Of a stretch of 64,000 nucleotides of DNA, positions 14,076-35,533 are shown one piece after another. The stretch covers positions 806,001 to 870,000 of the forward strand of contig NZ_CP088252.1 of the NCBI RefSeq assembly GCF_021117385.1, given 5' to 3'. The stretch is from Frateuria soli (GTDB lineage: Bacteria; Pseudomonadota; Gammaproteobacteria; Xanthomonadales; Rhodanobacteraceae). The position numbers were made by a program, and so were the translations under genes. The stretch's first letter is position 1. Each line of letters begins with the position of its first letter. Below the pieces are notes generated by a model. It did not search any database. It saw only the letters and a list, made by a program, of their open reading frames with translations, and was not told where the DNA came from.

Positions 14076-14146
14076 GCGAATCCAAGTCCCATGTCCGTGG
14101 CGGCGCGCGCAGTGAGCGATGCGCGCGGTCGCCTCGCGGCAAGAAT

Positions 14147-14181
14147 AAAAAAAGCCCCCCTCCCGGCGGGAGAGGGGCTTG
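14147..14181 (-). terminator. Rho-independent terminator after pilC
   Basis: On the minus strand, AAGCCCCTCTCCCG pairs with CGGGAGGGGGGCTT and is followed by a run of T. It lies 12 bases past the pilC stop. The hairpin sequence also resembles the CCCTCTCC/GGAGAGGG intergenic repeat seen near 41 kb. Confidence 0.8.
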
Positions 14182-14192
14182 GTATTCGAAGG

Positions 14193-15458: not shown

Positions 15459-15620
15459 GCCCGATTCCCCCGATGGTTCGATCCGCGATGGCCGCGCGAG
15501 GCGGCGATCTTCGGTGAAGCTTATGCCAAATATGGCGAGTTATTTCGTGCCGTTCCGCGCAACTTGGCGATTTTCCGGAGGGCTCTCACAGGTGAGCTCG
15601 TACCGTCCTGCCGCTCGTCC

Positions 15621-15644
15621 GTAGGAGCGCACCTGTGCGCGACC
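15621..15644. repeat. Single REP hairpin between pilB and pilC
   Basis: A GTAG head is followed by a GAGCGCAC and GTGCGC hairpin and GACC. No inverted partner is evident nearby. The rest of the 249-bp gap (15459-15707) shows no coding signal. Confidence 0.7.
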
Positions 15645-15707
15645 GCCATGTCCGTTCCTCGTCGCGCCCGGGAAAAACCGATCAGCCTGAAGGCGCCGCG
15701 CAACCGG

Positions 15708-17432: not shown

Positions 17433-17727
17433 GATAGATTCCGGCCTTAAGCCCCCTTATTGACAGGAAATTTACCCCAGAAATGCGGCGCGGTCATCTG
17501 GCGGCGAAGGGGCGCCTACGGCAACTCCAAAAGCCGCCACGCGTGTCACGGAAACGCGGGGGGCCGACCCTTCCGGTTCCTCGACGGCAGGCTCTGCCGG
17601 GGGTGGGTGAGCAGCGGGGCGCGCCATGAAGTGTGCCGCCCGGCACACACGCGGGTCGGGCTTCGGCGGTGATCGCCTTCCCCGTGATGGGCCGCGTTAT
17701 GATCGCCCGATACCCGGGGGAACCGAT

Positions 17728-18582
17728 TTGAAACGCCTGAGCATCATCTTGCCCGCGAAAAACGAAGCGGCGGCGCTTGCCCGTCTGCTGCCGGCGCTGC
17801 GTACCGCGCAGCCGGACGCGGAGATCATCGTGGTCGACGACGGCTCGACGGACGACACGCGGGCCATCTGCGCCGCCAACGCGGTCGACTGCCTTTCCTC
17901 GCCCTACTCGATGGGCAACGGTGCGGCGATCAAGCGCGGCGCACGGGCGGCCCAGGGCGAATGGCTGGTCTTCATGGACGGCGACGGCCAGCACGACCCG
18001 GCCGACATCGACCGCCTGCTGGCCAAACTGCAGGAGGGCTACGACATGGCCATCGGCGCGCGCGACTGGAGCAGCCAGGCCGGCGTGGGCCGGGGGCTGG
18101 CCAATACTCTCTACAACTGGCTGGCCACGCGCATGACCGGCCATCCGGTACTCGACCTCACCTCCGGCTTCCGCGCGGTGCGCGCGGAGAAATTCCGCGA
18201 GTTCCTGTACCTGCTGCCCAACGGCTTTTCCTACCCCACCACCAGCACCATGGCCTTCTTCCGCAGCGCCTACCCGGTCGCCTACGTGCCGATCCAGGCG
18301 GCCCAGCGTGTGGGCAAGAGCCACATCCGGCCACTGCGCGACGGCCTCAGGTTCCTGCTGATCATCTTCAAGATCGCGACGTTGTACTCGCCGCTGAAAC
18401 TGTTCGCGCCGGCGAGCGTGGTGTTTTTTCTGCTGGGGTGCGTGAACTATCTATGGACGTATCTGCACTTCGGGCGACTGACAAATGGCAGCACGCTTTT
18501 GTGGAGTGCGGCGGTGATCGTGTTCCTGATCGGTTTGGTTTCAGAACAGATCACGACGTTGACGTATCGGCAGAATGATTGA
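17728..18582 (+). CDS. Family 2 glycosyltransferase with two membrane helices, GtrB/DPM1-like
   Basis: The 284-residue protein starts KRLSIILPAKNEAAALARLL, with nucleotide-sugar motif VVDDGSTDDT and metal site FMDGDGQHDPADI. Two helices near the C-terminus (LKLFAPASVVFFLLGCVNYL and a second at 255-275) anchor it to the inner membrane, as in enzymes that load a sugar onto polyprenyl phosphate. The TTG at 17728 is chosen because GGGGGA precedes it and homology starts exactly there. It is the first gene of the plus-strand cluster; the next gene overlaps it by 8 bases. Sugar and acceptor are unknown. Confidence 0.85.
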   Translation: MKRLSIILPAKNEAAALARLLPALRTAQPDAEIIVVDDGSTDDTRAICAANAVDCLSSPYSMGNGAAIKRGARAAQGEWLVFMDGDGQHDPADIDRLLAKLQEGYDMAIGARDWSSQAGVGRGLANTLYNWLATRMTGHPVLDLTSGFRAVRAEKFREFLYLLPNGFSYPTTSTMAFFRSAYPVAYVPIQAAQRVGKSHIRPLRDGLRFLLIIFKIATLYSPLKLFAPASVVFFLLGCVNYLWTYLHFGRLTNGSTLLWSAAVIVFLIGLVSEQITTLTYRQND

Positions 18583-19717
18583 CCAACGGCGCAAGCGCAT
18601 CTTGCTGGTGACGCGCAACCTGCCCCCGCTTGTCGGCGGCATGGAGCGGCTCAATTGGCACATGGCCGAAGAACTGGCAAAGGTGGCCGAGGTGCGTGTC
18701 GTGGCGCCGGCCGGCAGCACCGCGCCCGAGAGCGTCGGGTTGCGCGAAGTCCCGTTGCGCCCCCTCGGCCGCTTCTTGTTCGCCGCACAACGCGGTGCAT
18801 TGCGCGAGGCGCGCTCGTGGAAACCTGATGTGGTGCTTGCGGGCAGCGGACTCACTGCGTTGCCGGCGCTGCTTGCCGCACGTGCTGTAGGTGCGAGCGC
18901 GGCTGCCTATGTGCATGGTCTTGATCTCACGGCCGGCCATCCGCTCTATCGAGCGCTGTGGTATCCAGCTTTGCGCCGTATGGATCGTATCGTCGCCAAC
19001 AGCGCTCCGACCGCGGCACTCGCGCAATCCATCGGCATCGTTCCGGAGCGCATCGGTATCGTGCACCCAGGAGTCAGACTGCCTACTACGCTACCAGACG
19101 AACAGGCGATCGGCGCCTTCCGCCGCGAGCACGCGCTCGGCAACCGAACGGTGCTGCTTTCGGTCGGCCGCCTGAGCGAGCGCAAGGGACTGCGAGAATT
19201 TATCGAACGTGCATTGCCGCGTATCGTCGCCGCCGAGCCGGATGTATTGCTGCTAGTGGTCGGCGACGTGCCGAAGAATGCATTGCTTGCGGGCAGCCAG
19301 TCGCCGGAAAGCATTCGTGCGACCGCGCGACACGCAGGCGTGGAAGGCAACGTGCGCCTGCTTGGGTTGCTGAACGAAGCTGATCTTGAACTCGCTTATA
19401 GCTCCGCGGACGTGCACGTCTTCCCGATACGCCAGCTTGCCAACGATCCGGAAGGATTTGGGATGGTCGCCGTCGAAGCTGCTGCACATGGGCTGCCAAC
19501 GGTGGCGTTCGCGGTAGGGGGAGTGGTGGATGCGGTCGAGGATGGCACCAGTGGTTGTCTGGTTATGTCGGGAGACTACGTGGCCTTGGCCGAAGCCGTT
19601 ACCACCACGTTGACACGCCGCGACGATTTGCGGGCGTCGTGTCTCGATTTTGCACGCCGATTTACGTGGCCCGAAATCGGCGCACAGCTCGGTCGGCAAA
19701 TTTGTTCCTGCCAGTGA
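18575..19717 (+). CDS. Family 4 glycosyltransferase
   Basis: The 380-residue GT-B enzyme has the N-terminal acceptor domain start RILLVTRNLPPLVGGMERLN, including the glycine pair seen in GT4 enzymes. The C-terminal nucleotide-sugar domain holds LLSVGRLSERKGLREFIERA and the EX7E-type region DPEGFGMVAVEAAAHGLPTV. It is cytoplasmic or membrane-associated and adds one sugar to a growing lipid-linked chain. It overlaps the preceding glycosyltransferase gene. Base composition drops within this stretch compared with the pil genes. The exact linkage cannot be told. Confidence 0.88.
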   Translation: MIDQRRKRILLVTRNLPPLVGGMERLNWHMAEELAKVAEVRVVAPAGSTAPESVGLREVPLRPLGRFLFAAQRGALREARSWKPDVVLAGSGLTALPALLAARAVGASAAAYVHGLDLTAGHPLYRALWYPALRRMDRIVANSAPTAALAQSIGIVPERIGIVHPGVRLPTTLPDEQAIGAFRREHALGNRTVLLSVGRLSERKGLREFIERALPRIVAAEPDVLLLVVGDVPKNALLAGSQSPESIRATARHAGVEGNVRLLGLLNEADLELAYSSADVHVFPIRQLANDPEGFGMVAVEAAAHGLPTVAFAVGGVVDAVEDGTSGCLVMSGDYVALAEAVTTTLTRRDDLRASCLDFARRFTWPEIGAQLGRQICSCQ

Positions 19718-19889
19718 TCTCGGGTGCAATGAGCGACTTGCTTGGGCTCTCGGTGACCTTCGGCGTTGAAGGCCCATGCACGCTAGGGCGGAAGATCGTC
19801 GCTCGATCGCCGGACTCAACGTGCAACTGGTATCCGCCGTTCGACTCAGTAATGATCGGTCGGTTGCGCCATCGCGGGGAATGGACCGA

Positions 19890-20810
19890 ATGACTGGTAC
19901 TGCATCACTGGCAACGGTCACCGTGACTTATCGTCCGGAACTGGTGATTCTGCGCAAGCAACTCGACCAATTGCCGCGAGACGCATTGCGCATCGTAGTC
20001 GATAATGCGTCGCCCGAGCCCCTGCGTGTCTGTCTACGCACGCTCGTGGCTGAAGAAGGCGCGGTTCTGATCGAGAATGACGCAAACCTCGGTCTTGCCG
20101 CGGCGACTAACATCGGCGTCGCGCATGCCTTGCGTGCGGGCGTCCAGCGCGTGTTATTCCTTGATCAAGACACCGAGCCAGGCGTCACGGGGGTCGCCGA
20201 TCTGTGCGCTGCGCACGACCGGCTCCATACATCGGATCCTCGGCCATCGTGCATTGGGCCGCGGTTGATCGACTTTACGACCGGCCTGGATCACGGCTTC
20301 CATCAGCAGCGCGGCTGGCGTTGGGTCCGTGTGTGGCCTCCTCGCGGCGCTCCTCCAGTGCCTTGCGTGAACCTGAATGGAAGCGGAACCCTTGTTCCAA
20401 GCGCGATCCTGGTCGCGCTGGGGGGGCTGGAGGACGACCTTTTCATCGATCACGTTGATACCGAATGGGCCTTTCGCGTGCTGGCGGCTGGCTTCGGCCT
20501 GTACGGTGCGCCCGACGTCGCCTTCGGGCATCGTATGGGCGAGAAAACCTGGCGATTCTGGTGGTGGGGATGGCGCGTGTGGCCGTATCGTTCGCCATTA
20601 CGCCACCGTTATTTATTTCGGAACGCGGTGCGTCTGATGCATCGCCCCTATGTTCCTAGGGTCTTCAAGACATGGGCGGTAGTGAAGCTGCTGGTGACGT
20701 TCTGTGTGCACGCTCTGTTCGACTCGGCGCGTGCGCAGCAGACCAGAGCGATGTTGCAGGGCGTAGCGGATGGCTGGCGAGCAGAGCGCACGGGAAAATC
20801 AAGTGACTGA
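19890..20810 (+). CDS. Family 2 glycosyltransferase, rhamnosyltransferase-like
   Basis: The 306-residue protein has the GT-A pattern LATVTVTYRPELVILRKQLD, IVVDNASPE, NLGLAAATNIGVAHAL and LFLDQDTEPG, the layout of WbbL/RfbN-type rhamnosyltransferases. Further on are LNGSGTLVPSAILVALGGLE and FIDHVDTEWAFRV, the acceptor-side motif of this group. The ATG at 19890 is taken because GGGGA (19876-19880) lies at a proper distance; the ATG at 19881 is too close to it. The 172-bp gap before it is the widest inside the cluster and may hold a promoter, but none is convincing. Confidence 0.85.
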   Translation: MTGTASLATVTVTYRPELVILRKQLDQLPRDALRIVVDNASPEPLRVCLRTLVAEEGAVLIENDANLGLAAATNIGVAHALRAGVQRVLFLDQDTEPGVTGVADLCAAHDRLHTSDPRPSCIGPRLIDFTTGLDHGFHQQRGWRWVRVWPPRGAPPVPCVNLNGSGTLVPSAILVALGGLEDDLFIDHVDTEWAFRVLAAGFGLYGAPDVAFGHRMGEKTWRFWWWGWRVWPYRSPLRHRYLFRNAVRLMHRPYVPRVFKTWAVVKLLVTFCVHALFDSARAQQTRAMLQGVADGWRAERTGKSSD

Positions 20811-21918
20811 CGAGACTATCTACGTAACACGACCGTTCTTGCCGCCGCTCGATGAGCTGTTGCCTTCGCTAGAGCGCATCTGGTCCACGCGCGAACTCAC
20901 GAACGGGGCAGCATTTCATCGCGAATTTGAGGAGGCGTTGGCGAAATACCTGCGCGTGCCGTACGTGTCACTTTTCACCAACGCGACCGTTGCGCTGGTG
21001 ACGGCACTGCAGTGCCTCCGTATCACCGGCGAGGTGATCACCACTCCGTACTCGTTCGTCGCCACCGGACACTCGTTGCTGTGGAACGGCATCGAGCCGG
21101 TGTTCGCCGACATCGATCCGCACACGCTGACACTCGATCCTGCGCGTGTCGAAGCGGCCATCACGCCCCGCACGACTGCGATCATGCCAGTGCACGTCTA
21201 CGGCCGCCCGGCCGATACCGTTGGCCTGCAGCGGATCGCCGATACTTATGGGCTACGTATTATCTATGATGCGGCCCACGGTTTCGGCGCGAAATACGAC
21301 GGCCGTTCCCTAGCGGATTACGGTGATCTCTCCGTGTTGAGTTTCCACGCTACCAAGGTATTCAACACCTTCGAGGGGGGCGCGATCATCTCGCGTGATG
21401 CGCAGACGAAACAGCGCATTGACTACTTGAAGAATTTTGGTTTCGCCGGCGAGACGACCGTGGTCGCGTCGGGCATCAACGGCAAAATGAGCGAATTTCA
21501 AGCGGCGCTGGGCCTATTGCAGTTGCGGTACATCGATGAGTGCATACGTCGACGCAGCGAAGTTGCAAAGCGTTACGACGTTGCATTTGCCGACGTGGCA
21601 GGCATCAAGGTGCTCGGCGCACTCAATCGCTACGTTCCTAATTTTAGTTACTACCCAATCTTCGTTGGCCGCGATTATCCGATCGAGCGCGACGCACTCT
21701 ACGAGAAGTTAAGCGAAACGGGCATCCACGGCCGCCGTTATTTCTATCCGCTAATCAGCGATTTCCCCATGTATCGTGGCCGTCCTTCCGCGGCGAAGGC
21801 GGGCCTGCCGGTCGCGCATCAGGTCGCCGACTCCGTGATCTGCCTGCCGATCTATCCCGAGCTGTCCGAAGCTGACCAGAGTCGCGTCATCAATTGCGTG
21901 AGGCGTGCGGGCGCATGA
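20803..21918 (+). CDS. PLP-dependent sugar aminotransferase (DegT/DnrJ/EryC1 family)
   Basis: The 371-residue protein has the fold signature FTNATVALVTALQCL, VITTPYSFVATGHSLLWNGI, the Asp of IIYDAAHGFG and the PLP lysine in LSFHATKVFNTFEGGAI. The SFHATK(V/F)FNT version is typical of aminotransferases that make 3-amino-3,6-dideoxy-hexoses (FdtB, QdtB, VioA relatives). It therefore probably makes a nucleotide-activated amino-deoxy sugar for the glycan of this cluster. The GTG at 20803 overlaps the stop of the previous gene and follows GGGAAA. No dTDP-glucose synthesis genes (rmlA, rmlB) are in the window, so precursors must come from elsewhere. Confidence 0.9.
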   Translation: MTDETIYVTRPFLPPLDELLPSLERIWSTRELTNGAAFHREFEEALAKYLRVPYVSLFTNATVALVTALQCLRITGEVITTPYSFVATGHSLLWNGIEPVFADIDPHTLTLDPARVEAAITPRTTAIMPVHVYGRPADTVGLQRIADTYGLRIIYDAAHGFGAKYDGRSLADYGDLSVLSFHATKVFNTFEGGAIISRDAQTKQRIDYLKNFGFAGETTVVASGINGKMSEFQAALGLLQLRYIDECIRRRSEVAKRYDVAFADVAGIKVLGALNRYVPNFSYYPIFVGRDYPIERDALYEKLSETGIHGRRYFYPLISDFPMYRGRPSAAKAGLPVAHQVADSVICLPIYPELSEADQSRVINCVRRAGA

Positions 21919-22487
21919 GCTCGCATCTGACTCGCGACGAACTGCGCGAAGCAGGTTTTTTGCGCTTTGGCGATGACGTGCGGGTTTCGCGCAAGGCATC
22001 CTTTTATGGTGCGGAACGCATCCTCCTGGGCAGCCACGTTCGCATCGACGACTTCTGCGTGCTCAGCGCAGGCGAGGGCGGTATCGAAATTGGAGATCGT
22101 ATCCACATTGCCGTGTATTCCAGTTTGATTGGCTGCGGACGGATCCGGATACACGATTTCGCGAACATCTCGTCGCGCGTGTCGATTTACTCGAGCAATG
22201 ACGATTACTCGGGCGAGACGATGACGAACCCAATGGTGCCGCAGCCCTACACGGCCGTCCGGCATGCCGACGTCTCCATCGGGCGCCATGTGATCATCGG
22301 CAGCGGCAGCGTGGTCCTTCCTGGTGTCGAAATTGGCGAAGGTGTCGCGATCGGCGCGTTGTCGCTCGTGCGCTCTTCCTGTGAGCCGTTCGGTATCTAT
22401 GCAGGCACGCCGGCGAGGCGCATCGGCGAGCGCAGGCGCACTTTGCTCGAACTCGAGCGCAAGTTGGCCGGTGAAGAAGGCACGTGA
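21915..22487 (+). CDS. Left-handed beta-helix (hexapeptide) acyltransferase
   Basis: The 190-residue protein is built of hexapeptide turns (ILLGSHVRIDDFCVLSA, IEIGDRIHIAVYSSLIG, VSIGRHVIIGSGSVVLPG, VEIGEGVAIGALSLV) ending in the GIYAGTPARRIGER cap of the WbbJ/maltose acetyltransferase group. It probably acetylates or otherwise acylates the amino sugar made by the aminotransferase just upstream, with which it overlaps (ATGA). The substrate is inferred only from position. Such proteins act as cytoplasmic trimers. Confidence 0.87.
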   Translation: MSSHLTRDELREAGFLRFGDDVRVSRKASFYGAERILLGSHVRIDDFCVLSAGEGGIEIGDRIHIAVYSSLIGCGRIRIHDFANISSRVSIYSSNDDYSGETMTNPMVPQPYTAVRHADVSIGRHVIIGSGSVVLPGVEIGEGVAIGALSLVRSSCEPFGIYAGTPARRIGERRRTLLELERKLAGEEGT

Positions 22488-23983
22488 TCGGGCGGACGCG
22501 CCTGCGCGACAACCTAGTCGCGAATCTCGCGGGCACGGCAGTAGCCGCGGCGGCGGCCGTGCTCTCGGCGCCACTGATCTATCGCTGGATGGGGCCGGGC
22601 GCGTATGGGCTGGTCGGTGTGTACGTGTTGCTGCAGACGCTGATGCCGCTGTTCGACGCTGGCATCACGGCGGGGCTCGCCCGTGCGGTTGCGTGGCATC
22701 GCGAGCGCTCATTGGGAGAGGTGCGCACGTTGGTGCAGGCGGCAGTCCGCCCGGTGGTCGGGATGGCGGCGCTATTTGCCCTTATCGCGGCGTTCGGCGC
22801 CGGCCCCGCAGCCCAGCACTGGGTGGGCGATTCCGCCATGCCGTTCGAAACCGTGCGCCTCGCGTTCTGGTGGATGGTAGGCGCGCTGGCTATTCGCTTG
22901 GTGGCCGGACTTGGGCGCGCCTCCCTAATGGCGCTTGAATTGCAGCCGCGCGCTAATGCGGTGCAAGCGGCCGCTGCCGTAACGCGTACGTTCGGCGCAT
23001 TGGCATTCGCTATGGTGACGGGCACCGGGGTCGCAGGCTTTTTTTTTCTGCAGGTGCCGATTTCCATCGCGGAGTACGTCGCGTACCACTCAGCGTTGCG
23101 CCGTGTGCTGACGGCCGAACCAATCCCGGTGACGCGTATAGAGCTTTCGCGCCACGTGCGTTTCGCCTTCGGTATCGCTGGGTTATCGGCCATGTGGTTG
23201 CTCACCTCCCAGGTCGACAAGGCGTTGCTTGCCGAAAGCCTTGCGATGCGCGGTTATGGTGCGTATTCGCTCGGGGTGCACGTCGCCTCCGTGACCCTCC
23301 TTGCGGTGGGGGCCATTCATGGCGCGGTGCTGCCGCGCATGACGCGCCATGTCGCGGGACAAGAAGAGGCCAAACTCAGCGCGTTGTACGGCATCGCGAC
23401 GACGTTGACGGTGGCGACGGCTTGCTCGGTCGTCGTCGCGATCGCGATCGGCGCAAGGATGTTGGTGCCATCATTGCAGGTCTCGGTCGACGGTATCGAC
23501 CCTATGAGGATCGCCTGGCTGTACGGCATCGGCAATGCGGGCGCCGCGTTGCTGGCCATAGCCTACCAGCTGCAGAACGCACGAGGGGTAATACGCATGC
23601 ATGCAGCCGGCACGGCGTTGCAGATGCTCGTGCAGGTGCCGCTCGTCGCGTGGTCGGCAACCGGTGGCGATGCAGTCCGCACCGCGGTCACGTTCGCTTG
23701 GGTCAACTGGGCATTTGCGCTCGTTTGGCTGCCGTTCGTACATGCGCGTTTTCTACCTTGCGGACATTGGCGCTGGATGTCGCGCCATCTATTGCCGACG
23801 CTGATTGCGGGTCTTATCGTCGGTGCCGCGGCGATTTACCTCGCTCGTGCGCTGCCGGGTGGTTGGGTGTGGGGCATCCTTGCGCTCGCATTCGGCACGG
23901 GTGTGACCTTCGCTGCAGCCGTTGCGATGGATCCAGATGCTCGGGAAGTGGTGAAGACGTGGGTAGGCGAACATGCAGGTTGA
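22484..23983 (+). CDS. Wzx-like polysaccharide flippase (MOP superfamily)
   Basis: The 499-residue protein is almost wholly hydrophobic, with about 12-14 helices. It starts with an amphipathic segment (RTRLRDNLVANLAG) and YRWMGPGAYGLVGVYVLLQT, the O-antigen/teichoic acid exporter pattern. It should flip an undecaprenyl-linked glycan from the cytoplasmic to the periplasmic face. It begins with GTG overlapping the previous stop (GTGA) and overlaps the next gene by 11 bases. No Wzy polymerase or WaaL ligase is recognisable in the cluster, which matters for the product. Confidence 0.88.
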   Translation: MIGRTRLRDNLVANLAGTAVAAAAAVLSAPLIYRWMGPGAYGLVGVYVLLQTLMPLFDAGITAGLARAVAWHRERSLGEVRTLVQAAVRPVVGMAALFALIAAFGAGPAAQHWVGDSAMPFETVRLAFWWMVGALAIRLVAGLGRASLMALELQPRANAVQAAAAVTRTFGALAFAMVTGTGVAGFFFLQVPISIAEYVAYHSALRRVLTAEPIPVTRIELSRHVRFAFGIAGLSAMWLLTSQVDKALLAESLAMRGYGAYSLGVHVASVTLLAVGAIHGAVLPRMTRHVAGQEEAKLSALYGIATTLTVATACSVVVAIAIGARMLVPSLQVSVDGIDPMRIAWLYGIGNAGAALLAIAYQLQNARGVIRMHAAGTALQMLVQVPLVAWSATGGDAVRTAVTFAWVNWAFALVWLPFVHARFLPCGHWRWMSRHLLPTLIAGLIVGAAAIYLARALPGGWVWGILALAFGTGVTFAAAVAMDPDAREVVKTWVGEHAG

Positions 23984-24911
23984 ATACGCACCCGCCGTCA
24001 GCGTCTGCGTGACGACCTTTCAGCATGCGCCTTTTATTCGCCGGTGCCTCGAATCGGTACTTGCGCAGGATTTCGCTGGGGAAATCGAAGTCCTCGTCGG
24101 CGATGACGGCTCCGCTGACGGCACGCGCGACATCATTATCGATGTAGCGTCACGCGACGCACGCGTAGTGCCGGTGTTCCATTCCAGAAACCTCGGTCCG
24201 ACTGGTAATCTGGAATCGCTGGTCGCGCGCGCGAAGGGCCTAGCAATCGCTCACCTCGACGGTGACGATGAATGGCGGCCAGGCAAGCTGCGCGCGCAGT
24301 GTGTCATATTGGAACGTTCGCCGAGCGTCGTTGCGGTTTATACAAACGCAGAGCTCGTTGCACATGACGATCGCCCGCTTGGAATCTTCAATTCGGGAGT
24401 TCCTTCTAGGATCGATCTCTCTGAGCTGCTTCGCCGGGGCAACTTCCTCAACCACAGTTCGCTCCTCTATCGCGCCGAAGTGCGCGATGCCGTGCTGGGG
24501 ATAGCCCCGCCTTGGATCGATTACCGCCTGCACGTACGCCTCGCCGCCCGCGGCGCGCTTGCTTATGTTGACCAGCTCCTCGTCGTGCACCGCTGGAGGA
24601 CGCCAGGTTCGATGATCAAGACAATGCCGCGTGCCGTGATCGATGGCCAGATCGACGCTTTCCGCGAAGCGCTCGACACGGGCGCGTCTGCTGAAGCCGT
24701 GCGCCGCGCGGCGGGGTGCGTTTGGGGAAAAGCCCTGGTCCAGGCGTTCATCGCGCGCGACTTCACTGATCTGCGTTACTTCACCGACAAAATCGGCGCG
24801 ATGCCGGACCTGCAGGCCGGCTTCCGCTGGCGCATCGCCCAGGCGGCGCTAGCGCCGTGGCGCGCCTTGCGCTCGGTGGTCTCGCGCAAGCGGGGCGTGT
24901 ATTTTCCATGA
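23973..24911 (+). CDS. Family 2 glycosyltransferase
   Basis: The 312-residue GT-A enzyme has VSVCVTTFQHAPFIRRCLES, LVGDDGSADGTRDII, RNLGPTGNLESLVARAKG and the metal-binding AHLDGDDEWRPGKL. The distal part holds NFLNHSSLLYRAEV, the acceptor-side region of GT2 enzymes. It has no membrane helix, so it probably works at the cytoplasmic face on the lipid-linked intermediate. The start overlaps the flippase gene. The sugar is unknown. Confidence 0.87.
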   Translation: MQVEYAPAVSVCVTTFQHAPFIRRCLESVLAQDFAGEIEVLVGDDGSADGTRDIIIDVASRDARVVPVFHSRNLGPTGNLESLVARAKGLAIAHLDGDDEWRPGKLRAQCVILERSPSVVAVYTNAELVAHDDRPLGIFNSGVPSRIDLSELLRRGNFLNHSSLLYRAEVRDAVLGIAPPWIDYRLHVRLAARGALAYVDQLLVVHRWRTPGSMIKTMPRAVIDGQIDAFREALDTGASAEAVRRAAGCVWGKALVQAFIARDFTDLRYFTDKIGAMPDLQAGFRWRIAQAALAPWRALRSVVSRKRGVYFP

Positions 24912-24921
24912 GGAGGACGCG

Positions 24922-25719
24922 ATGAATCGCAGGCTGCTCGGGTGGTGGGCTTCGGCTCGCGCGATGGGCGTTGGCGGCGCGCGAGCGCTTTTGGGCGTTT
25001 GGCACCACTGCGTGGTATGTGGACATCGTGTTCCGGCCTTCCTGCCCTGGCGCGGTGGCTCGGCCGCCGCGCCACCTTTGATGCGTGCGCTGCACATGGT
25101 GGGGAGTGATCTCGACCATTTTGCTTGTCCGCGCTGTGGCGCTAACGATCGCGATCGCCACCTGCGCCTTTACTTCGAACGTTGCGGCATCGCCGAGCGG
25201 CTGAGCGGCGCACGTATTTTGCATTTCGCGCCGGAAGCACCGCTGATGGCATGGATCGCCACGATGCAGCCAGCTTTGCACGTGTTAGCGGATCTGTATC
25301 CGGCGCGCCAGGGGATCCAACGCATCAACCTTGAAGCGATCCCCTTCAAGAATGGGACGTTCGACGTCGTAATCGCGAATCATGTACTGGAGCATGTCGG
25401 TGACCTGGACAGCGCAACAAGCGAAATCGCCCGCGTGCTTGCACCAGGAGGCATCGCGATCCTGCAGACCCCGTGGTGCCGTGGCCTTGCGGCAACACTT
25501 GATGATCCGGGCGTTCAGTCGTCGGATGCTCGGCTCCAGTTATATGGGCAGGAAGACCATGTACGTCTGTTCGGCCGCGATGTATACGCACGCATTGGAA
25601 AGAGCGGACTGAACGCACTGCCGATGTCGCACGCGGCAGTTTTGTCCGGGATTGATCCAGACCTCTACGGTGTCAATCCCGAGGAGGACCTGATGCTGTT
25701 CGCGCGCGCTGCGAATTAG
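24922..25719 (+). CDS. SAM-dependent methyltransferase with an N-terminal zinc ribbon
   Basis: The 265-residue protein has CVVCGHR and CPRCGAND pairs near residues 30 and 70, likely a zinc-binding knuckle. A Rossmann methyltransferase core follows: ARILHFAPEAPLMAWI, VLADLYPARQGIQ (acidic end of strand 2), FDVVIANHVLEHVGD and LAPGGIAILQTPW. Methyltransferases of this Methyltransf_11 type in glycan clusters often cap a sugar chain and so stop its growth, but this is inferred. The ribosome site is GAGGAGG before the ATG at 24922. It is the last gene of the plus-strand cluster. Confidence 0.83.
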   Translation: MNRRLLGWWASARAMGVGGARALLGVWHHCVVCGHRVPAFLPWRGGSAAAPPLMRALHMVGSDLDHFACPRCGANDRDRHLRLYFERCGIAERLSGARILHFAPEAPLMAWIATMQPALHVLADLYPARQGIQRINLEAIPFKNGTFDVVIANHVLEHVGDLDSATSEIARVLAPGGIAILQTPWCRGLAATLDDPGVQSSDARLQLYGQEDHVRLFGRDVYARIGKSGLNALPMSHAAVLSGIDPDLYGVNPEEDLMLFARAAN

Positions 25720-25897: not shown

Positions 25898-27877
25898 TCA
25901 AGAGGATGGCAACCTAGAGCGAAGCTCGGCGATACTGCCGTCCAGACGCCCCGCGAAATTGAGGGCCTCGAGCTTCTGGAGCGCTTGTCGCGCCTGCTCA
26001 AACTGCCCACTTGCGAGAAGCATGCGTACGGCGGTGATGCGATAGGCCGGTTCCATGGGCCCAGCGCTGATCGCCTGCTCGATCACCCGCAATGCAAGCG
26101 CGCGGTCATCGAGGATATTCCACGCATAATCGCTGTATGTGGCCAACAGCCGGGGGCTGGGATTCGGATGTGACAGCGCAGCGAGGAAGGCGGCTACCAT
26201 GCGCCCTTTGGGCAAGCGGCAGGCACCTTCGCGTGCGCATTGAGTAAGCGTACCCAACGAACTTTCATCCTGCACGCCGGGCGGGCGGGCTTTCAGCTTG
26301 GCGATAAGGCTGTCCCACCAGGCGTCCTTAAGCGGCAGGCCCATGCGCGCATTCATAAAGATCAGCGCTTGTTCGGGAAGTATCGAGCTGTTCGGCAGCT
26401 GCATTGCCCGCTCCAGCGGCGCGTAAGCCAACCGAGTGAATGGCGAGTCGCGATCATAATGAGAGTAGATGACGTATATGCGGCCCAATTCGTACTGCGC
26501 GCGGGGTGATTCGGGAGCGCGTCCCGCGAGCTCCGCGGCCAAGCGCAACGGATTGCCCCAGGCGTAGGCGGTCAAGGCGGTGCTAGCGATCCAGAACAGC
26601 ATCAGGCCGGTCAGCGCGACATAGCGCGGTAAGGCCATGGGTAAAGGGCGTTGGTGGGTGGCAGCGGAGGATTTGTCCGCATGGCGCGGCGAGGCCAGTG
26701 CTGGAACGACGGCAAGCAGTAGGCCGAGGCTGGCGAAGTAGTTGCGATGCTCGTAGATCAGTTCCAACGGGAGGATGGTTCCGGTTAACAGGTGGCAACC
26801 GAGAAAGAAGGCCAAGCCAAGCGACACCAATGGGCGTCGTTGCCGCAATGCAAAAACGAGCCAGGCCAGCGCAGCTAGCGCGAGAAGGCTAACCAGCGTG
26901 GTCCAAGGGCTTAGGAGGGAGGTCGAGACGTGGAAATCGTCGTGGTAGAAGGAAAGCGCATCAGGTGTTGGCAGCAGGGTCCAGTCGATGTAACCGGCGA
27001 CGATCCGTGCCTCGCTCAACAGGCGCTGGCCAAGCGTGAAATCACGAGTCGAAAAGGCTGCGGGCGAGAGCACATGGGGTACGACTAGCGTCAACCCCGC
27101 GAGCATTGGCAGCAGCAACGTCAAGGTGAAAAGCGCCAGCACGCGTGCGTCTCGGTTCCGCGATGCGGCGGCCCGGTGAAAGCCGAACACGCTCCATTCG
27201 ACCATGAAGGCGTATAGCGGCAGCATCACCGCCGTTTCCTTTGCCAGCAAGCCGAGCGCGGTGGGTGCAATCACGCTGAGCGCACACAGGACTAGGCCGC
27301 CACGGCCGGCGAGCATGCGTTCACGTCCACCGATGTAACCCAGCAGGCCGAGCAGTACAAAGGCGTTGGCCATGCTCTCCATGCGCTGTACCACATAGAG
27401 CACGCCGGTCAGGTTGATTGGCAGCACCATCCACGCAGTGGCAATGAGTACAGCCAACAGGCCATTGCGCTCGTGCTGCCGAACTCCGCTGCTTGCTGCT
27501 TTCGCTTTTGCTGACGCTTCAATGGCATCCAGCAGGCGTCGTGCGAGCAGGAACACCAGCAGTCCGTTTAGCAAGTGGATAAGCAGGTTGGTCAGCTTCA
27601 TCCAGTAAGGGTCGAGGCCTGCGGTGAGGTAGTTGGCAGCGAAGCTCAACGAGGCCAGCGGCCGTTTGAAATCGCTGGCCGGCGACGACAGCGCCGCGCG
27701 CGCAAGGCTGGAGATGCTTGCATCGGACGGTTGGACACCGCGGTTGTCCACGATATTGGGGTAATCATCGAACAGCCAGCCGCCGGAAAGGCCGGGCCAG
27801 TAGACCGCGGTGCAAAGGACGAGTGCGATCACCATCAGCCATGAGCTGTGGCCGCGAAGGCGTGAGAAATGGCTCAT
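25898..27877 (-). CDS. Membrane GT-C-like glycosyltransferase with TPR-like tail, copy 2
   Basis: The 659-residue protein has a first helix followed by SGGWLFDDYPNIVDN, with an Asp-Asp pair after helix 1, the place of the catalytic acid in GT-C enzymes. Further conserved points are LYVVQRMESMAN and ELIYEHRNYFASLGL. About ten helices fill residues 15-440. The C-terminal ~210 residues are soluble, with TPR-like helical pairs (AAELAGRAPESPRAQYELGR, FEQARQALQKLEAL), and should face the periplasm. It is a paralogue of the next gene and overlaps it by four bases. It resembles TMTC- and TfpW-type enzymes that glycosylate proteins; a role on pilin is inferred from location. Confidence 0.7.
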   Translation of the reverse strand: MSHFSRLRGHSSWLMVIALVLCTAVYWPGLSGGWLFDDYPNIVDNRGVQPSDASISSLARAALSSPASDFKRPLASLSFAANYLTAGLDPYWMKLTNLLIHLLNGLLVFLLARRLLDAIEASAKAKAASSGVRQHERNGLLAVLIATAWMVLPINLTGVLYVVQRMESMANAFVLLGLLGYIGGRERMLAGRGGLVLCALSVIAPTALGLLAKETAVMLPLYAFMVEWSVFGFHRAAASRNRDARVLALFTLTLLLPMLAGLTLVVPHVLSPAAFSTRDFTLGQRLLSEARIVAGYIDWTLLPTPDALSFYHDDFHVSTSLLSPWTTLVSLLALAALAWLVFALRQRRPLVSLGLAFFLGCHLLTGTILPLELIYEHRNYFASLGLLLAVVPALASPRHADKSSAATHQRPLPMALPRYVALTGLMLFWIASTALTAYAWGNPLRLAAELAGRAPESPRAQYELGRIYVIYSHYDRDSPFTRLAYAPLERAMQLPNSSILPEQALIFMNARMGLPLKDAWWDSLIAKLKARPPGVQDESSLGTLTQCAREGACRLPKGRMVAAFLAALSHPNPSPRLLATYSDYAWNILDDRALALRVIEQAISAGPMEPAYRITAVRMLLASGQFEQARQALQKLEALNFAGRLDGSIAELRSRLPSS

Positions 27878-29913
27878 CCGGGAGGCGCGTAGCTGTCTTT
27901 GAGGTCTTTTTGTAGTGTATCCCGCAGACGTGCCAATTCCCGCGGCCAGTAGTCCTGACGGGCCAATACATAGGCGTGGAGGCGCGCCATGCTCCAGCCG
28001 GATGCTTTGGGCGGAGGTGGAAGGGACTGGAAATAGGCCAGGTGAGCGAGCCCCTGTGCCGGAAATCCTGCCGAGCCCAGCTCAGCCGCCTGGCTGAGTG
28101 CAAGGCTTTCGCGGGGTTGCTGCCGCAGTCCGGCGTCGAACAACGTCAGCGCCTGCTCGGGCTCTCCTTGCTTGATCGCGAGGCGACCGAGCAGGTAGTC
28201 GATATCCTGCTGACGCCCCGGGTTACCGACCAGTCGCGGGTTCTGCCGGGCGGCTAGCAGCAGACGTTTGATCTCCGCCAAGCCGATGGCCGGGCATTTA
28301 CCGAAGGTAGCCTCGTTGATCGCTCGATCGAACCAGTTGGTGAGCAGGGTGCCGGTGTCACGGGTGGTGGCCAAGGCTTGCTCGGCCGATGTGAGGCTAG
28401 TTGCGTTGAGGTTGCCTGCGGCGCATCGGGCAGCCACCAAGTTCAACGCAAGTTGTACTTGGTCGGGTGCGAGCCGCAGCGCAGGCTCAAGTCGCCGAAT
28501 GGCCAAGCGCGGATGGCCTGCACTCATCTCCGCCTGTGCCGCAAAAGCCTGCGCCCGTGCTGAAGACGGATTCAGGCGGGCCCATAGCAACGCTTGGTCA
28601 TGGGTATTGCCCCAAAGGCTTGCCCGGGACCATGTCATGGTCAGCAGGGTAGCCAGGCAGACGGCTGCCAAGACTAGCTTGGAACGGTGCCAGGACGTGT
28701 GCGCCGACTGCTCGGTGGATTGCCTCGTCATCAGATTGCAGCCGCACAACCATAACGCAAGCGGCCAGAACATCAGCAGTGCAGGCAGGTAGTTTCGATG
28801 CTCGAAGAAGAGTTCCAGGGCGATGGTGCTGGACTCGATCGACTGTCCGACAAAGAAGAACAAGACGGCTGCCGCGACCGCCGGCCAGCGGTTGCGACCT
28901 TTCCACGCAAAGGCGATCAACGCAGCGATGGCCAGGAGCGAAGGCAGCGTGGTCCACGGATGCAGCAAGGAGGTGGACGCCTTGACCTGGTCATTGAACA
29001 GGCCGGCAGTGAAAGGCGTTGGCAGCCAGAGCATGTGCAGGTAGGTGAGAAGCACCCGCGGCTCGGTGAGCAACCGCTGCCCCAGCGTCCATTGGCGCGC
29101 GTCGGAAATGCCGACCGTCAGGCCGTGCCATCCTGCGTGCAACAGATACGCGACGATTGCCAGCGTGGGCAGCCAGCCGAACAGCAGCATGGCGCGCCTG
29201 TAACTGGACGGTGCATTTGCCCGGTGGGCGGCACGGTCGCAAGGGTGCAGAAACGCAAATTCGAGCGTGAGCGCAAGGACCGGCAGGAGGATACCGTTGG
29301 CCTTGCTGAGTACGGCCAGCATCGTGCAGGCGCCCAAGCCCGTGACGATCCAGACCAGTCCCTGCCACAGAGCACGCTCCCTCATTCTCTTTCGGCCGTG
29401 CAACCAGGCCAGTAGTCCGAGGAGTGTGAACGTGGCCGGCAACATGGCCTCGCGCTGCACGATGTAGAGCGTTGTCGAGACGAAGAGCGGGTGCGCCATC
29501 CAGAAACCGGCGCCCAGGACCGCCGCCGCGTCGAGGCGTCTGCGGTCCTGTTCCGGTTGCGCCGTGGCGGCAGCGCCCAATCGGCGCAGCAGCAGAAACA
29601 GCAGAACGCCATTCAACAGGTGAACGAGCAGGTTCGTCCGCTTGAACGGATAGGGGTCTGCCGGCCAGTTGCGCGCATCCAGCAGGAACGAGAGCAGGGC
29701 AATCGGTCGCCCGGTCGGATCGGCGGTACCCGAGGTTACATAGCGGACAAAGGTCTCCCATCGGTTAATGGGACCGGTTTCGCCCAGCGCAGGAAGGTTT
29801 GCGAAATCGTCGAAGAGGAACCCGCCGTGCAGGCCCGGGTGGTAGGCGAGTGCGGTAAGGCATGCCATGCAACACAGCATGAGCCACGTGGCCAGGCGGG
29901 TATTTCGCGTCAT
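27874..29913 (-). CDS. Membrane GT-C-like glycosyltransferase with TPR-like tail, copy 1
   Basis: The 679-residue protein is collinear with its neighbour: HGGFLFDDFANLPAL after helix 1 (Asp-Asp pair), LYIVQREAMLPATF, and ELFFEHRNYLPALL. About ten helices occupy residues 10-410. The C-terminal part contains helical repeats of TPR type (PSSARAQAFAAQAEMSAGHP; RLAIKQGEPEQALTLFDAGL). It starts 31 bases after the terminator-like hairpin that follows the first pilin gene, on the same strand. Read-through from the pilin promoter or a weak promoter could drive it. By family resemblance it would use a polyprenyl-linked sugar in the periplasm; the acceptor is unknown. Confidence 0.7.
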   Translation of the reverse strand: MTRNTRLATWLMLCCMACLTALAYHPGLHGGFLFDDFANLPALGETGPINRWETFVRYVTSGTADPTGRPIALLSFLLDARNWPADPYPFKRTNLLVHLLNGVLLFLLLRRLGAAATAQPEQDRRRLDAAAVLGAGFWMAHPLFVSTTLYIVQREAMLPATFTLLGLLAWLHGRKRMRERALWQGLVWIVTGLGACTMLAVLSKANGILLPVLALTLEFAFLHPCDRAAHRANAPSSYRRAMLLFGWLPTLAIVAYLLHAGWHGLTVGISDARQWTLGQRLLTEPRVLLTYLHMLWLPTPFTAGLFNDQVKASTSLLHPWTTLPSLLAIAALIAFAWKGRNRWPAVAAAVLFFFVGQSIESSTIALELFFEHRNYLPALLMFWPLALWLCGCNLMTRQSTEQSAHTSWHRSKLVLAAVCLATLLTMTWSRASLWGNTHDQALLWARLNPSSARAQAFAAQAEMSAGHPRLAIRRLEPALRLAPDQVQLALNLVAARCAAGNLNATSLTSAEQALATTRDTGTLLTNWFDRAINEATFGKCPAIGLAEIKRLLLAARQNPRLVGNPGRQQDIDYLLGRLAIKQGEPEQALTLFDAGLRQQPRESLALSQAAELGSAGFPAQGLAHLAYFQSLPPPPKASGWSMARLHAYVLARQDYWPRELARLRDTLQKDLKDSYAPPG

Positions 29914-29926
29914 TCTTCAAAGTACC

Positions 29927-29957
29927 AAAAAAGAAGGGCCGCATGGCGGCCCTTCTT
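29927..29957 (-). terminator. Rho-independent terminator after the first pilin gene
   Basis: On the minus strand, AAGAAGGGCCGC and GCGGCCCTTCTT form a 12-bp stem around a CAT loop, followed by a run of T. It lies 23 bases past the pilin stop. Such a hairpin would let the pilin be made in excess over the membrane glycosyltransferase genes downstream. Confidence 0.88.
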
Positions 29958-29979: not shown

Positions 29980-30444
29980 TTACTGACGGCAGGAAGCTGG
30001 CAGGTACTTGTCCTTGACCTTGGTGCCGTCGCCCTTGCAGTGCCATTCCACCGAACCAGCGTGGGTGATGGGAGAGAGGACGAGAGTGCCGTCGGCACCC
30101 TTGATCGCGGTATTCGCCTTCGGACCGTCGTACTGGGCCTCGATCACGCCGTCCGTACCGTCACCATCAGAACCGACGCCGATCTGGCTGACGTACTGGC
30201 CGTTGATGCTCCCGGCGCTGGAGAGACCAGCCGACTCATTGTTGCCAGGCAGACGACCGGTGTTGGTGTAGAACTCGGCCACGGCGGTCTTGGCGCCGTC
30301 GGCGAGCGACATGCCTTCGGAGACCTGCGTGCGGATCACGTAATCCTGGTAGGCCGGGATCGCGATGGCCGCCAGGATGGCGATGATGGCGATCACGATC
30401 ATCAGTTCGATGAGGGTGAAGCCCTTCTGGATGGTCTTCTTCAT
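29980..30444 (-). CDS. pilA: Type IV pilin, PilA-like (154 aa)
   Basis: The short leader MKKTIQKG is followed by the class a type IV pilin start [20 protein letters not shown] with Glu at mature position 5. The rest is a variable head domain ending in a disulfide-bounded loop (Cys in VEWHCKGDG and in LPASCRQ). Cleavage by PilD after Gly8 is expected. The mature protein would be the pilus fibre subunit or one of two. Several Ser and Thr residues in the head could accept glycans, but no site can be fixed. A sigma-54-type promoter lies about 130 bases upstream. Confidence 0.95.
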
Positions 30445-30572
30445 GGTGGTTCCTCGTTTTGCTGGTTAGCTAACCGTTTGATGCCCCCTGAGCCCCGGTC
30501 CCGGATCCCCCTAGGCGGAATCGGACCCCACGTACGCGGTCAGGAACGACCAGGAAGCTCGCGGTGTACGAA

Positions 30573-30587
30573 GCAGTTTGCGTGCCA
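30573..30587 (-). promoter_or_regulatory. Sigma-54 (RpoN) -24/-12 promoter for the first pilin
   Basis: On the minus strand, TGGCACGCAAACTGC has GG and GC exactly ten bases apart and a full TGGCACG -24 box; the -12 box reads CTGC rather than TTGC. It would start transcription near 30561, giving a leader of about 115 bases before the pilin ATG. pilA genes in Pseudomonas and Xanthomonas relatives are RpoN/PilR-dependent. The remaining sequence between the two pilin genes (30445-30772) shows no gene. Confidence 0.75.
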
Positions 30588-30772
30588 CGCCCACTGCTTC
30601 TTTATTGCCGCATAGCTGCAGGCCGGGCGATTGTGCACGTCGTCACGAATGTCTACAACCCGTGTGTTTGCCGTAGCGTCCGGTTGAAGAACCGTGACGC
30701 GGCTGGCATCCGGCGGGCCTGTCTAAAAGCGGCACCTAGTGTCAAAGTTTGTCAAGGATGCGTCTCTGGTCG

Positions 30773-31216
30773 TCAACGGCGGCACGACGCGGGCAGGTAC
30801 TTGCCCGGCAGGGTCGTCCCGGATCCGCTGCAGGTCCAGGCGATGCTGCCGGCATAGGTGATCGGCGACAGGACGAGCTCGGCGCTGTGTATCTGGACGT
30901 TGGCCTTGGGACCTTGGAAGCCCACGTCGATCTTGCCCCCGGTGACATCGACGCTCGAGACATAACTCCCTTTGATCGAGGCGGCGCTCGCCAGGCCCGC
31001 CGACGTGTTGTTAGGCGGAAACCGGCCCGTATTGGAAATGAAATCCCAGACGGCCGCTTTGGGGCCCGTGGACAAACTCAGTCCTTCGGACACCTGGGCA
31101 CGAATCACGTAGTCCTGGTACGCCGGTATCGCGATGGCAGCAAGGATGGCGATGATCGCAATCACGATCATCAACTCGATCAGCGTAAAGCCACTGGTAC
31201 GTCGAAGCGTTCGCAT
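30773..31216 (-). CDS. Type IV pilin, PilA-like (147 aa), second copy
   Basis: The leader MRTLRRTSG is followed by the same [20 protein letters not shown] core, with near identity to the neighbouring pilin through the N-terminal helix. The head domain diverges but keeps the C-terminal disulfide loop ([16 protein letters not shown]). It is a tandem paralogue, and either gene could encode the major subunit. AGGGGA upstream of the ATG is a good ribosome site. The two heads differ enough that they could form mixed pili or be expressed under different conditions. Confidence 0.94.
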
Positions 31217-31245
31217 GGAAGTCCCCTGTTGGTCGTCCGAGCGAG

Positions 31246-31260
31246 GCAGGTTTTATACCA
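31246..31260 (-). promoter_or_regulatory. Possible sigma-54 promoter for the second pilin
   Basis: On the minus strand, TGGTATAAAACCTGC keeps the GG-N10-GC spacing of RpoN promoters, though the -24 box is TGGTATA instead of TGGCACG. It lies 30 bases before the pilin start, giving a leader of about 20 bases. The TATAAA inside it could alternatively be a sigma-70 -10. Confidence 0.5.
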
Positions 31261-31305
31261 ATCAGGCTCTCACGGTGATCAGTCATGGGCGAGTTGTGAT
31301 TGCCG

Positions 31306-32661
31306 TCACGCACGGTCGAGCCCGCTTGCCCGGGCGCGGTATCGCGCCACCGCCCGGCAGGCCAGCCAGGTGACCCAGAGTGCCAGCAGGATCTCCATCG
31401 GTCGAAAAGGGGTCGAATACCGGGGCTCTGCCTGCAGCACCGTATATACGAACGTGACGTAGATCGTGAGCACTCCGACCAACTGCAGGGAAGGCGGGAT
31501 GTCGCTGCGACGGATCAACATGGCTAACCAGCTGACCGCCAGTGTGGCGAACAGGAATGGATTCAGGGCCTTGCAAACCGCCGCGAGTGCCCTGAGCGCA
31601 GCGTTTTCGAGAAAGGGGGAGTGGCGTGTGGGGTAGACATAGATGTCGCCCTGTCCCATCCGGATGTCCCACCCCCAGAAGAGCCAGGGCTTGCTCGCGT
31701 ACCAGGCGGCATAGTGAAGTGGCTTTCGCGCCATGCGGCCCAGGATCGCCTCCAACCCCTGCAACGGTTCCCGTTGCAGCAGGGTCGTTTCGCGGTCGAT
31801 CGCCGCCAGTGCGGCGGCCGCGTTCGGGTCGTGCCGGGAAGCGCCGCGGTAGGCGGCGTGATAGTTGGGCCACGACCCCTGGTCGAGATTGATCAGCGCC
31901 CGTCCGCTCGACGAAGGCGACGGTGGCAACAGCGCCCCCCGCACGTGCCAGGCGCCACAGAACAACACAGGGAAGATGAGCAGCCCCAGTGCCGTGCGTC
32001 GATTGATCCGGCGGCAGGCGAGCAGCCAGCAGACCCCCAAGGGGACCAGGGGGATGAGCACCGCGTTGCTGAGTGCGGCCATGGTCAGGACGGCGGTTCC
32101 ACCGATGGCGTGTGGCACGCTGCCCTTGTCCAGCCCCCAACCGGTCCATGTAAGACCGGCCACCGCGAGGAATCCGACCCAGGACTCGCTCAGGATTAAG
32201 CTGTTGATCGCAACGCTGTGTGGCCACAGCGCCATCAGGAGCCCCGCGGCGGCGAGCCACGGCAGCGGCATCCAGCGCCGTGCCATGAACATGCCCAACG
32301 GCACGGCCAACCCGCTCAGTATGGCCTGGCTCAAAAGTACGGCGGCATACCAGTGGTCCCAGTCGGGCCAGGCTTTCATCCATGCGGCGAGGAACAACGG
32401 ATAGCCCGGATCCCTGAAACTGTCCGGAGGAGGGGGCGTGCCGGTTTCCGGCGCCATCGAAAAGACACGATGGCGCGCGAGGTTGCGTGCGTAGGCGTAA
32501 TACTCCACGCCATCTGCCCGCACGTGTTGCTGATCATCCACCGGCTGGAGCACCTGGGCGTGTACGACGTAGTGCAGACGCACTCCCAGCGAGAGCGCCG
32601 TTATCAGCACGAGCAGGGCGGGCCACGTCCAGTGGCGTACGCGTGTATCGAGCAAGGACAT
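31306..32661 (-). CDS. Polytopic membrane glycosyltransferase (GT39/ArnT-like)
   Basis: The 451-residue protein has about ten helices. After helix 1 comes LGVRLHYVVHAQ and then ADGVEYYAYARNLARHRVFS and FRDPGYPLFLAAW, a pattern found in GT-C enzymes of the PMT/ArnT superfamily (acid in the first periplasmic loop, then a DPGYP element). It should transfer a sugar from a polyprenyl carrier at the periplasmic face. It sits directly upstream of the second pilin on the same strand, with an 89-base gap that holds the pilin promoter. The acceptor is unknown; pilin is the suggestive candidate. Confidence 0.72.
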   Translation of the reverse strand: MSLLDTRVRHWTWPALLVLITALSLGVRLHYVVHAQVLQPVDDQQHVRADGVEYYAYARNLARHRVFSMAPETGTPPPPDSFRDPGYPLFLAAWMKAWPDWDHWYAAVLLSQAILSGLAVPLGMFMARRWMPLPWLAAAGLLMALWPHSVAINSLILSESWVGFLAVAGLTWTGWGLDKGSVPHAIGGTAVLTMAALSNAVLIPLVPLGVCWLLACRRINRRTALGLLIFPVLFCGAWHVRGALLPPSPSSSGRALINLDQGSWPNYHAAYRGASRHDPNAAAALAAIDRETTLLQREPLQGLEAILGRMARKPLHYAAWYASKPWLFWGWDIRMGQGDIYVYPTRHSPFLENAALRALAAVCKALNPFLFATLAVSWLAMLIRRSDIPPSLQLVGVLTIYVTFVYTVLQAEPRYSTPFRPMEILLALWVTWLACRAVARYRARASGLDRA

Positions 32662-32785
32662 GGTGCTTCGCGGGTCTTTTGGCGAGCCGGGGCGCGTGAA
32701 TGGTACCGGCGAAGACACGCATCGGTTGCGTCTCCTCGCGCACCCGCTTAAGTTGCTGGTTACGCCTTCAACCAAGGGAAATCCC

Positions 32786-34933: not shown

Positions 34934-35010
34934 GTAGGAGCGCACCCTGTGCGCGACCGGGCGGAGCGGCGTGCTTGAAGCTTGCGGTCGCGCACAGGGT
35001 GCGCTCCTAC
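34934..35010. repeat. Inverted REP pair (BIME-like), copy A
   Basis: A GTAG head leads into the hairpin GAGCGCACCCTGTGCGCGAC. About 30 bases later the same unit is found inverted, ending in GTGCGCTCCTAC, so the whole 77 bases can form a long hairpin. It borders the 3' end of the transposase remnant, whose stop codon lies in it. Confidence 0.9.
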
Positions 35011-35533
35011 AACCAGATGCAGTTCCAATAGGGGTAATCGCATACATGTGCGACCAGCCCCGCGCGCAGTGGGTTGGCGACGATGTAGCGGGCAGCCGTT
35101 CGCAGGTCTTCGTCACGTCGCAGAGCGCGATCGTGAAATCCTCTAGCCCAGATGCTGGCGCCCCCACATGCGAAACGCAGCCGCTTGGTCGTGAGTGCCT
35201 TCATGCGGTTAACGAGCAACGACAGATTGTCGCGGTCGCCCAGCTCCCCAGCCCGTGCCAGTGGTTCGGCATGAGTACCCAGCAGAGAAGGCGCGCATCG
35301 CCCCAGCAACTCGCATGCGCGATGCAGTTGCTTGCCACCCTGGCGAGGGTGATATCGCTGAACAGCGGCTTGCGTTGCTGCGTCACAGTGGTGAGCAAAT
35401 AAACCTGGCCCGGGCGTGAAACGCGGCCTTTGCGTAGTGCGTTGTGACCGGGCCCTGCATGCATTCGCCAAGCTTGGATGGGTCTATTGACGTGCGTAAG
35501 CGCGCAAGCTCCAGCTTCACTGTAGGAGGGCAC
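35007..35533 (-). pseudogene. REP-associated tyrosine transposase (RAYT), frameshifted
   Basis: Two overlapping frames together give a whole RAYT. The first frame carries RPGQVYLLTTVTQQRKPLFS and the HUH metal motif in LMPNHWHGL. After that, near 35243-35255, the reading shifts by one base to ELGDRDNLSLLVNRMKALTT, then GFHDRALRRDEDLRTAARYI with the catalytic Tyr, VANPLRAGLV and a final DYPYWNCIWL. One missing base explains the break. RAYTs cut and copy REP hairpins. REP pairs flank this gene on both sides, and the 3' REP supplies its TAG stop. It is non-functional unless frameshifting rescues it. Confidence 0.87.

Follow-up and report, generated by a model that had tools for sequence, protein, structure and literature searches.

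Tandem GT-C proteins with TPR tails and a TMTC-like architecture in Frateuria soli are probable pilin-accessory O-glycosyltransferases

The window analysed here, a 64,000-nucleotide stretch of the Frateuria soli genome (contig NZ_CP088252.1, positions 806,001 to 870,000), carries on its minus strand two paralogous genes, referred to below as A (25898..27877, 659 aa) and B (27874..29913, 679 aa), which follow two genes of major type IV pilins. Each product consists of a GT-C membrane domain (11 transmembrane helices, residues 1-440 in A) and a C-terminal tail of tetratricopeptide repeats (TPR; residues 441-659 in A and 435-679 in B). A and B probably form a pilin-accessory pair of protein O-glycosyltransferases that depend on lipid-linked sugars, encoded in a cassette like those of the pilin glycosyltransferases TfpO and TfpW and having an architecture similar to that of the eukaryotic TMTC proteins. 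Both collinear reading frames, described in the original prediction as proteins of 659 and 679 residues overlapping by 4 bases, are indeed present. B is located upstream of A, and its stop codon overlaps the start codon of A (27874..27877), which makes translational coupling of the two genes likely.

The pilin genes, pil1 (29980..30444, PF00114 E=4.8e-24) and pil2 (30773..31216, PF00114 E=1.1e-21), are located directly upstream of B on the same strand, and their products are the presumed acceptors. Since the genome contains only three PF00114 pilin genes in total, the probability of such adjacency by chance is estimated at about one in a thousand. The remaining major-pilin gene is unlinked (C1:145410-145736, PF00114 E=3.6e-18). 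A strong intrinsic terminator (29931..29957, minus strand), represented by a 12-pair stem AAGAAGGGCCGC/GCGGCCCTTCTT followed by TTTT, separates pil1 from B, and across 77 loci, counting the present one, a terminator follows the pilin in 57, versus none of 385 shuffles. The same pilin-terminator-accessory layout is known for the Pseudomonas aeruginosa cassettes with TfpO or TfpW (PMC11841053). Of the features by which such cassettes are recognised, a same-strand gene directly downstream of the major pilin and an intrinsic terminator are both found here, while pilin-group specificity was found for B and not for A, as described below. The loci in which the second, pilin-side slot is occupied by a class 6 enzyme (L015, L019, L023, L031, L047, L048, L052, L056, L061) mostly have no terminator between the pilin and the enzyme. 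Sigma-54-like -24/-12 sites were seen by eye before both pilin genes (TGGCACGCAAACTGCT at about 30588 and TTGGTATAAAACCTGCC at about 31262, within 30500-31290 of the minus strand).

The linkage to pilins extends well beyond this genome. For comparison, 80 related loci, mostly of Rhodanobacter, Dyella, Luteibacter and Frateuria, were used, 79 of which were usable; a pilin gene was located upstream in 76 of these 79 Rhodanobacteraceae-type loci, and a second enzyme preceded A in 70. In 7 loci A alone was found behind the pilin; therefore, A can probably serve pilins by itself. Of the genomes sampled, 88 of 274 from the same class and 24 of 299 from the phylum contained the family, and a pilin-type gene was directly upstream in 29 of 40 class loci and 15 of 18 phylum loci (the latter count includes L227, where the genes are adjacent although they overlap in stop-to-stop frames). 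When loci cut at contig ends were dropped, the pilin was adjacent in about 44 of 53 loci of the Pseudomonadota sample. At two of the loci counted as pilin-adjacent (L144 and L147), second copies of the family are located downstream of pseudopilin-like genes rather than major pilins, which suggests other filament subunits as acceptors there.

B, and not A, follows the type of the pilin. Pairwise distances of B covary with those of the pilin (r=0.81; partial Mantel 0.79, permutation p=0.001, with the adjacent S9 peptidase as a species marker), whereas the corresponding value for A is 0.08 (p=0.19). Of 100 pairs of close genomes, 39 combined a pilin and a B that were both less than 50% identical with an A of at least 60% identity; none paired a changed pilin (<50%) with a retained B (>60%), and five had retained the pilin with B changed. 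In the closest relative seen, Frateuria flava (L007), the pilins, B and a third GT-C-like protein encoded upstream of pil2 are 79-85% identical to their counterparts and A is 65% identical, which places the exchange breakpoints between the two enzyme genes. Inside the largest class, a weaker covariation with the pilin is seen for A and B alike; therefore, the sharp contrast between A and B reflects the switching of classes.

The fold of both proteins was predicted with confidence. AlphaFold2 models built on family alignments had pLDDT (predicted local distance difference test) values of 93.7 for A and 92.1 for B, and a predicted template modelling score of 0.92 for both. Eleven membrane helices were read from each model; because this number is odd and the inside loops are richer in lysine and arginine (18 per 101 residues inside versus 10 per 180 outside in A, 18 per 90 versus 11 per 182 in B), the N-terminus is predicted to be inside and the C-terminus outside. 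The last 220-245 residues or so form 12-13 successive helices in the models, and their profiles matched solved TPR proteins at E=1e-18 (A-led alignment) and 4e-32 (B-led), in agreement with the helical-repeat domain expected from the first reading of the sequence. Searches of PDB sequences with single proteins or profiles returned TPR and chance matches only and no GT-C protein, and for GT-C membership hhalign was therefore used, polytopic flippases being the control: PMT-type GT-C proteins were matched by the membrane part at 75% for the A-led and 94% for the B-led alignment, and the flippases at 0.1%. Foldseek with the B model listed TPR proteins together with GT-C oligosaccharyltransferases (STT3/AglB) at a probability of 1.00, and with the A model TPR proteins only, among the matches listed. 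Thus, at the level of predicted structures, a GT-C fold of the membrane part and a periplasmic TPR tail are supported for both proteins, and neither the lack of a GT-C fold nor a C-terminus free of helical repeats, either of which would have spoken against the original prediction, was seen. The fold family and the active-site logic are shared with the PMT/ArnT enzymes; neither protein had a match to Pfam PMT (PF02366) or to a Wzy_C-type family. We know of no PMT/ArnT protein with a TPR tail.

The membrane parts of A and B are 36% identical over 392 residues (BLAST, E=5e-47), and this alignment does not extend to the tails, which are too diverged to be joined by BLAST. When A was used to search the 3.49-Mb genome, the only matches were A and B themselves. 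The shared FDD, VQR and EHRNY elements pointed out earlier are real and deeply conserved; VQR is exact in both proteins and is followed by MES in A and EAM in B. Residues D37, D38, R72, Q164, R165, K213, E376, R378 and Y380 of A are invariant in 105 family sequences, and their counterparts in B are likewise invariant (79 sequences).

The motifs of A follow in the order FDD (D37, D38), FKRP (KRP71-73), QRMES (QR164-165), KET (213-215), an acidic HDD in loop 4 (311-313) and EHRNY (376-380). The motifs published for TMTC proteins are M1 DD, M2 ..RP, M3 RxD, M4 KE(T/Q), M5 DW and M7 ERxxY (PMC7801869), and all but one of them have apparent counterparts in A and B. A literal DW is found in neither protein, and B has REA at M3 and KAN, instead of KET, at the phosphate/metal motif M4, i.e. 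alanine in place of glutamate. KAN is characteristic of the class of B (37 of 39 members, the other two being unrecognised by the pattern), whereas all but a few members of the A family carry KET or KES and other second-slot enzymes carry KET, KEN or KQT. The M4 glutamate is a proposed metal ligand in TMTC models, and its loss from B suggests a possible difference between the two enzymes in metal use or in the donor.

The eukaryotic cadherin O-mannosyltransferases TMTC1-4 (CAZy GT105) have, like A and B, an 11-helix GT-C domain with an extracytoplasmic C-terminal TPR tail. Their motifs also appear to run in the order seen in A and B: DD (loop 1), an RP segment, an arginine motif (loop 2), KE-T (loop 3), the acidic stretch of loop 4 and ER/EHR-x-Y. 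Their TPR domain has been proposed to recruit cadherins, that is, to hold the protein acceptor (PMC11292533). Unlike TMTC proteins, A and B are encoded as paired genes of an operon adjoining pilins, would use a bacterial polyprenyl donor, and show no match to DUF1736 (PF08409), the loop 4 segment of TMTC, up to E=1. This domain was found neither in the F. soli genome nor in 200 genomes of the phylum, where the control likewise matched nowhere, so that this result is uninformative as a negative. Of the TMTC resemblance claimed originally, the GT-C fold, the periplasmic TPR tail and the layout stood; the DUF1736 search gave no support for membership in TMTC or GT105.

Other appendage-modifying systems share single features with the pair. 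TfpW, a GT-C enzyme that arabinosylates the group IV pilin of P. aeruginosa, is encoded, like B, directly downstream of the major pilin after an intrinsic terminator and is specific to a pilin group; neither a TPR tail nor a tandem second enzyme is mentioned in the description that served for this comparison. The O-oligosaccharyltransferases TfpO (PilO)/PglL, which add a glycan to pilin, are likewise accessory enzymes of pilin cassettes but represent another enzyme type, and P. aeruginosa TfpO and TfpW are themselves described as unrelated (PMC11841053). The flagellin glycosyltransferase FlmG is also fused to a TPR domain, which binds the appendage subunit flagellin in two-hybrid assays (PMC7591256), but it is a cytoplasmic GT-B enzyme with the TPR at its N-terminus and an unrelated catalytic fold.

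In the phylogenetic tree, A and the B-type genes occupy separate, supported deep lineages. Because members of both occur in distantly related genomes, the tandem represents an old pairing, and the position beside the pilin has been reoccupied by enzymes from different lineages. A recent tandem duplication is rejected by this tree, and the idea that duplication could have given rise to two acceptor or donor specificities is unsupported as it was worded.

We propose the following mechanism. With eleven membrane helices, the active-site loops and the TPR tail would both face the periplasm, where each enzyme would take a sugar or a short glycan carried on a polyprenyl phosphate. The loop 1 Asp-Asp pair would activate a Ser/Thr hydroxyl, Lys-213 and Arg-378 (A numbering) would hold the carrier phosphate, and the sugar would be added to the neighbouring type IV pilins before their assembly. 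The TPR tail would likely serve as the pilin dock, which is plausible by analogy because of the FlmG and TMTC precedents. B would be matched to the pilin and exchanged along with the pilin gene, and A would be the constant partner, which may act on a feature that these pilins all have in common or on the first sugar; any order in which the two enzymes act is putative. Several conserved Ser/Thr residues are candidates in each class of pilins, with no clear single site shared in the head domain.

The lipid donor is likely made by a family 2 glycosyltransferase (GT2; 17626..18582, plus strand), which has C-terminal hydrophobic stretches and resembles polyprenyl-phosphate-sugar synthases (AglJ, E=2.6e-32, also ArnC, PgfS and PpgS, all below the family cut-offs). 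This candidate donor-lipid synthase adjoins pilB here and is also near pilB in 6 related loci, which are all those whose data reach that far. The assembly genes pilB (15708-17432), pilC (14193-15458) and pilD (13218-14075) are on the minus strand; a plus-strand frame of 1442 aa across them (13101-17429) is spurious. On the far side of A, between the pilin-enzyme cassette and pilB-pilC-pilD, lies a glycan island (18575..25719, plus strand) with genes of a GT4 enzyme, a rhamnosyltransferase-like GT2, a DegT aminotransferase, a hexapeptide acetyltransferase, a flippase-like polysaccharide exporter (22484-23983), a further GT2 and a methyltransferase, resembling an O-antigen-like exchange region within the pilus locus. 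The gene content of 17626-25719 varies between close relatives: one locus (L080) keeps the order and that of F. flava does not. Three-component systems that combine a polyprenyl-phosphate-sugar synthase, a flippase and a GT-C enzyme bearing an extracytoplasmic binding module are an established design (PMC11127046), and in the present case the binding module is a TPR domain.

The island raises another, rather unlikely, explanation, that A, or both proteins, are oligosaccharyltransferases which move a preassembled, flippase-exported island glycan onto pilin, as in a Pgl-like pathway, rather than a single sugar from a polyprenyl monophosphate. A borders an island of glycosyltransferases, an aminotransferase, an acetyltransferase and the exporter, none of eight island genes scanned matched a polymerase, a ligase or an initiating phosphoglycosyltransferase, and the B model resembles STT3/AglB, all of which is consistent with such a role. 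However, the motifs and the 11-helix layout fit users of monosaccharide phosphates (PMT/TMTC), while oligosaccharyltransferase catalytic subunits have 13 helices (PMC6801728), the conserved gene of the island is the polyprenyl-phosphate-sugar-synthase-like GT2, and A showed no obvious covariation with island content in an informal comparison.

Less probable still, A and B might modify a surface glycan, such as an O-antigen-like polymer of the island, in the manner of GtrII or GT136, so that their adjacency to pilins would be cassette linkage only. GT-C enzymes with extracytoplasmic binding modules do decorate O antigens in three-component systems (PMC11127046), and the island adjoins A. The accessory domain here is, however, a protein-binding TPR and not a carbohydrate-binding module, the adjacency to pilins recurs in distant genomes (the pilin side alone was compared), and B follows the pilin type while A does not. 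That A and B are TfpY-like pilin assembly or quality-control factors, with catalysis lost and the TPR tail helping pilin to reach the assembly machine, is very improbable, since scaffold-only use would not demand the invariant Asp-Asp, Lys and Arg positions in 105 sequences and TfpY-like proteins have three transmembrane helices and no recognised glycosyltransferase domain (PMC11841053), even though the non-glycosylating TfpX, TfpY and TfpZ also occur in pilin cassettes (PMC11841053), PilF is among the proteins that the TPR tails resemble by Foldseek, and B has lost the M4 glutamate.

Several observations weigh against the proposed glycosylation of pilins by A and B. The missing M4 glutamate of B is one of them. 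Competition between the two domains leaves the Foldseek matches with weak E-values (0.001-0.03), and in about 9 of the 53 loci whose flanks are complete the enzyme has no adjoining pilin, several being located beside housekeeping genes. The covariation of B with pilin could come partly from adjacency and co-transfer, yet B has A as near on one side as the pilin on the other. Moreover, covariation with pilin is as high for the membrane part of B (0.83) as for its tail (0.84), by which covariation confined to the TPR tail is rejected. The case for pilin as the likely acceptor, as was suggested originally, is made much stronger than in the first reading by the genes directly upstream and by the covariation of B, while the tail, to which acceptor binding had been assigned, is not singled out.

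Among the other genes of the window, the third GT-C-like reading frame (31306..32736, minus strand), located upstream of pil2, is PMT-like (hhalign 98%) and has no Pfam match; it is carried by a minority of related loci and is a possible further pilin modifier. Two overlapping frames at 35007-35533 (minus strand) appeared by eye to be a frameshifted REP-associated transposase (MPNHWHG), with no Pfam match to either piece. No matches were obtained with defence-system models, Rfam or a plasmid collection.

Pilin cassettes with the glycosyltransferases TfpO and TfpW (PMC11841053) and the combination of GT-C and TPR in TMTC proteins are already known. A literature search, with most subscription papers outside its scope, revealed no description of the A/B family and no paper joining pilin cassettes with a GT-C and TPR architecture. 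More tentatively, and with somewhat less than even confidence, the family may represent a widespread and undescribed group of bacterial TMTC-like O-glycosyltransferases dedicated to type IV pilins, in which the TPR tail would read the pilin type and which would be exchanged as a pilin-enzyme cassette, being a bacterial counterpart, and possibly the source, of the eukaryotic TMTC design. If so, a large group of pilus-modifying enzymes would be added; in P. aeruginosa, pilin glycosylation guards against pilus-targeting phages (PMC11841053). The choice of acceptors by O-glycosyltransferases of the periplasm and the lumen of the endoplasmic reticulum is poorly understood, TPR docking in TMTC proteins being still a proposal (PMC11292533), and the dozens of matched enzyme-pilin pairs with swapped partners would provide natural material for testing this idea.

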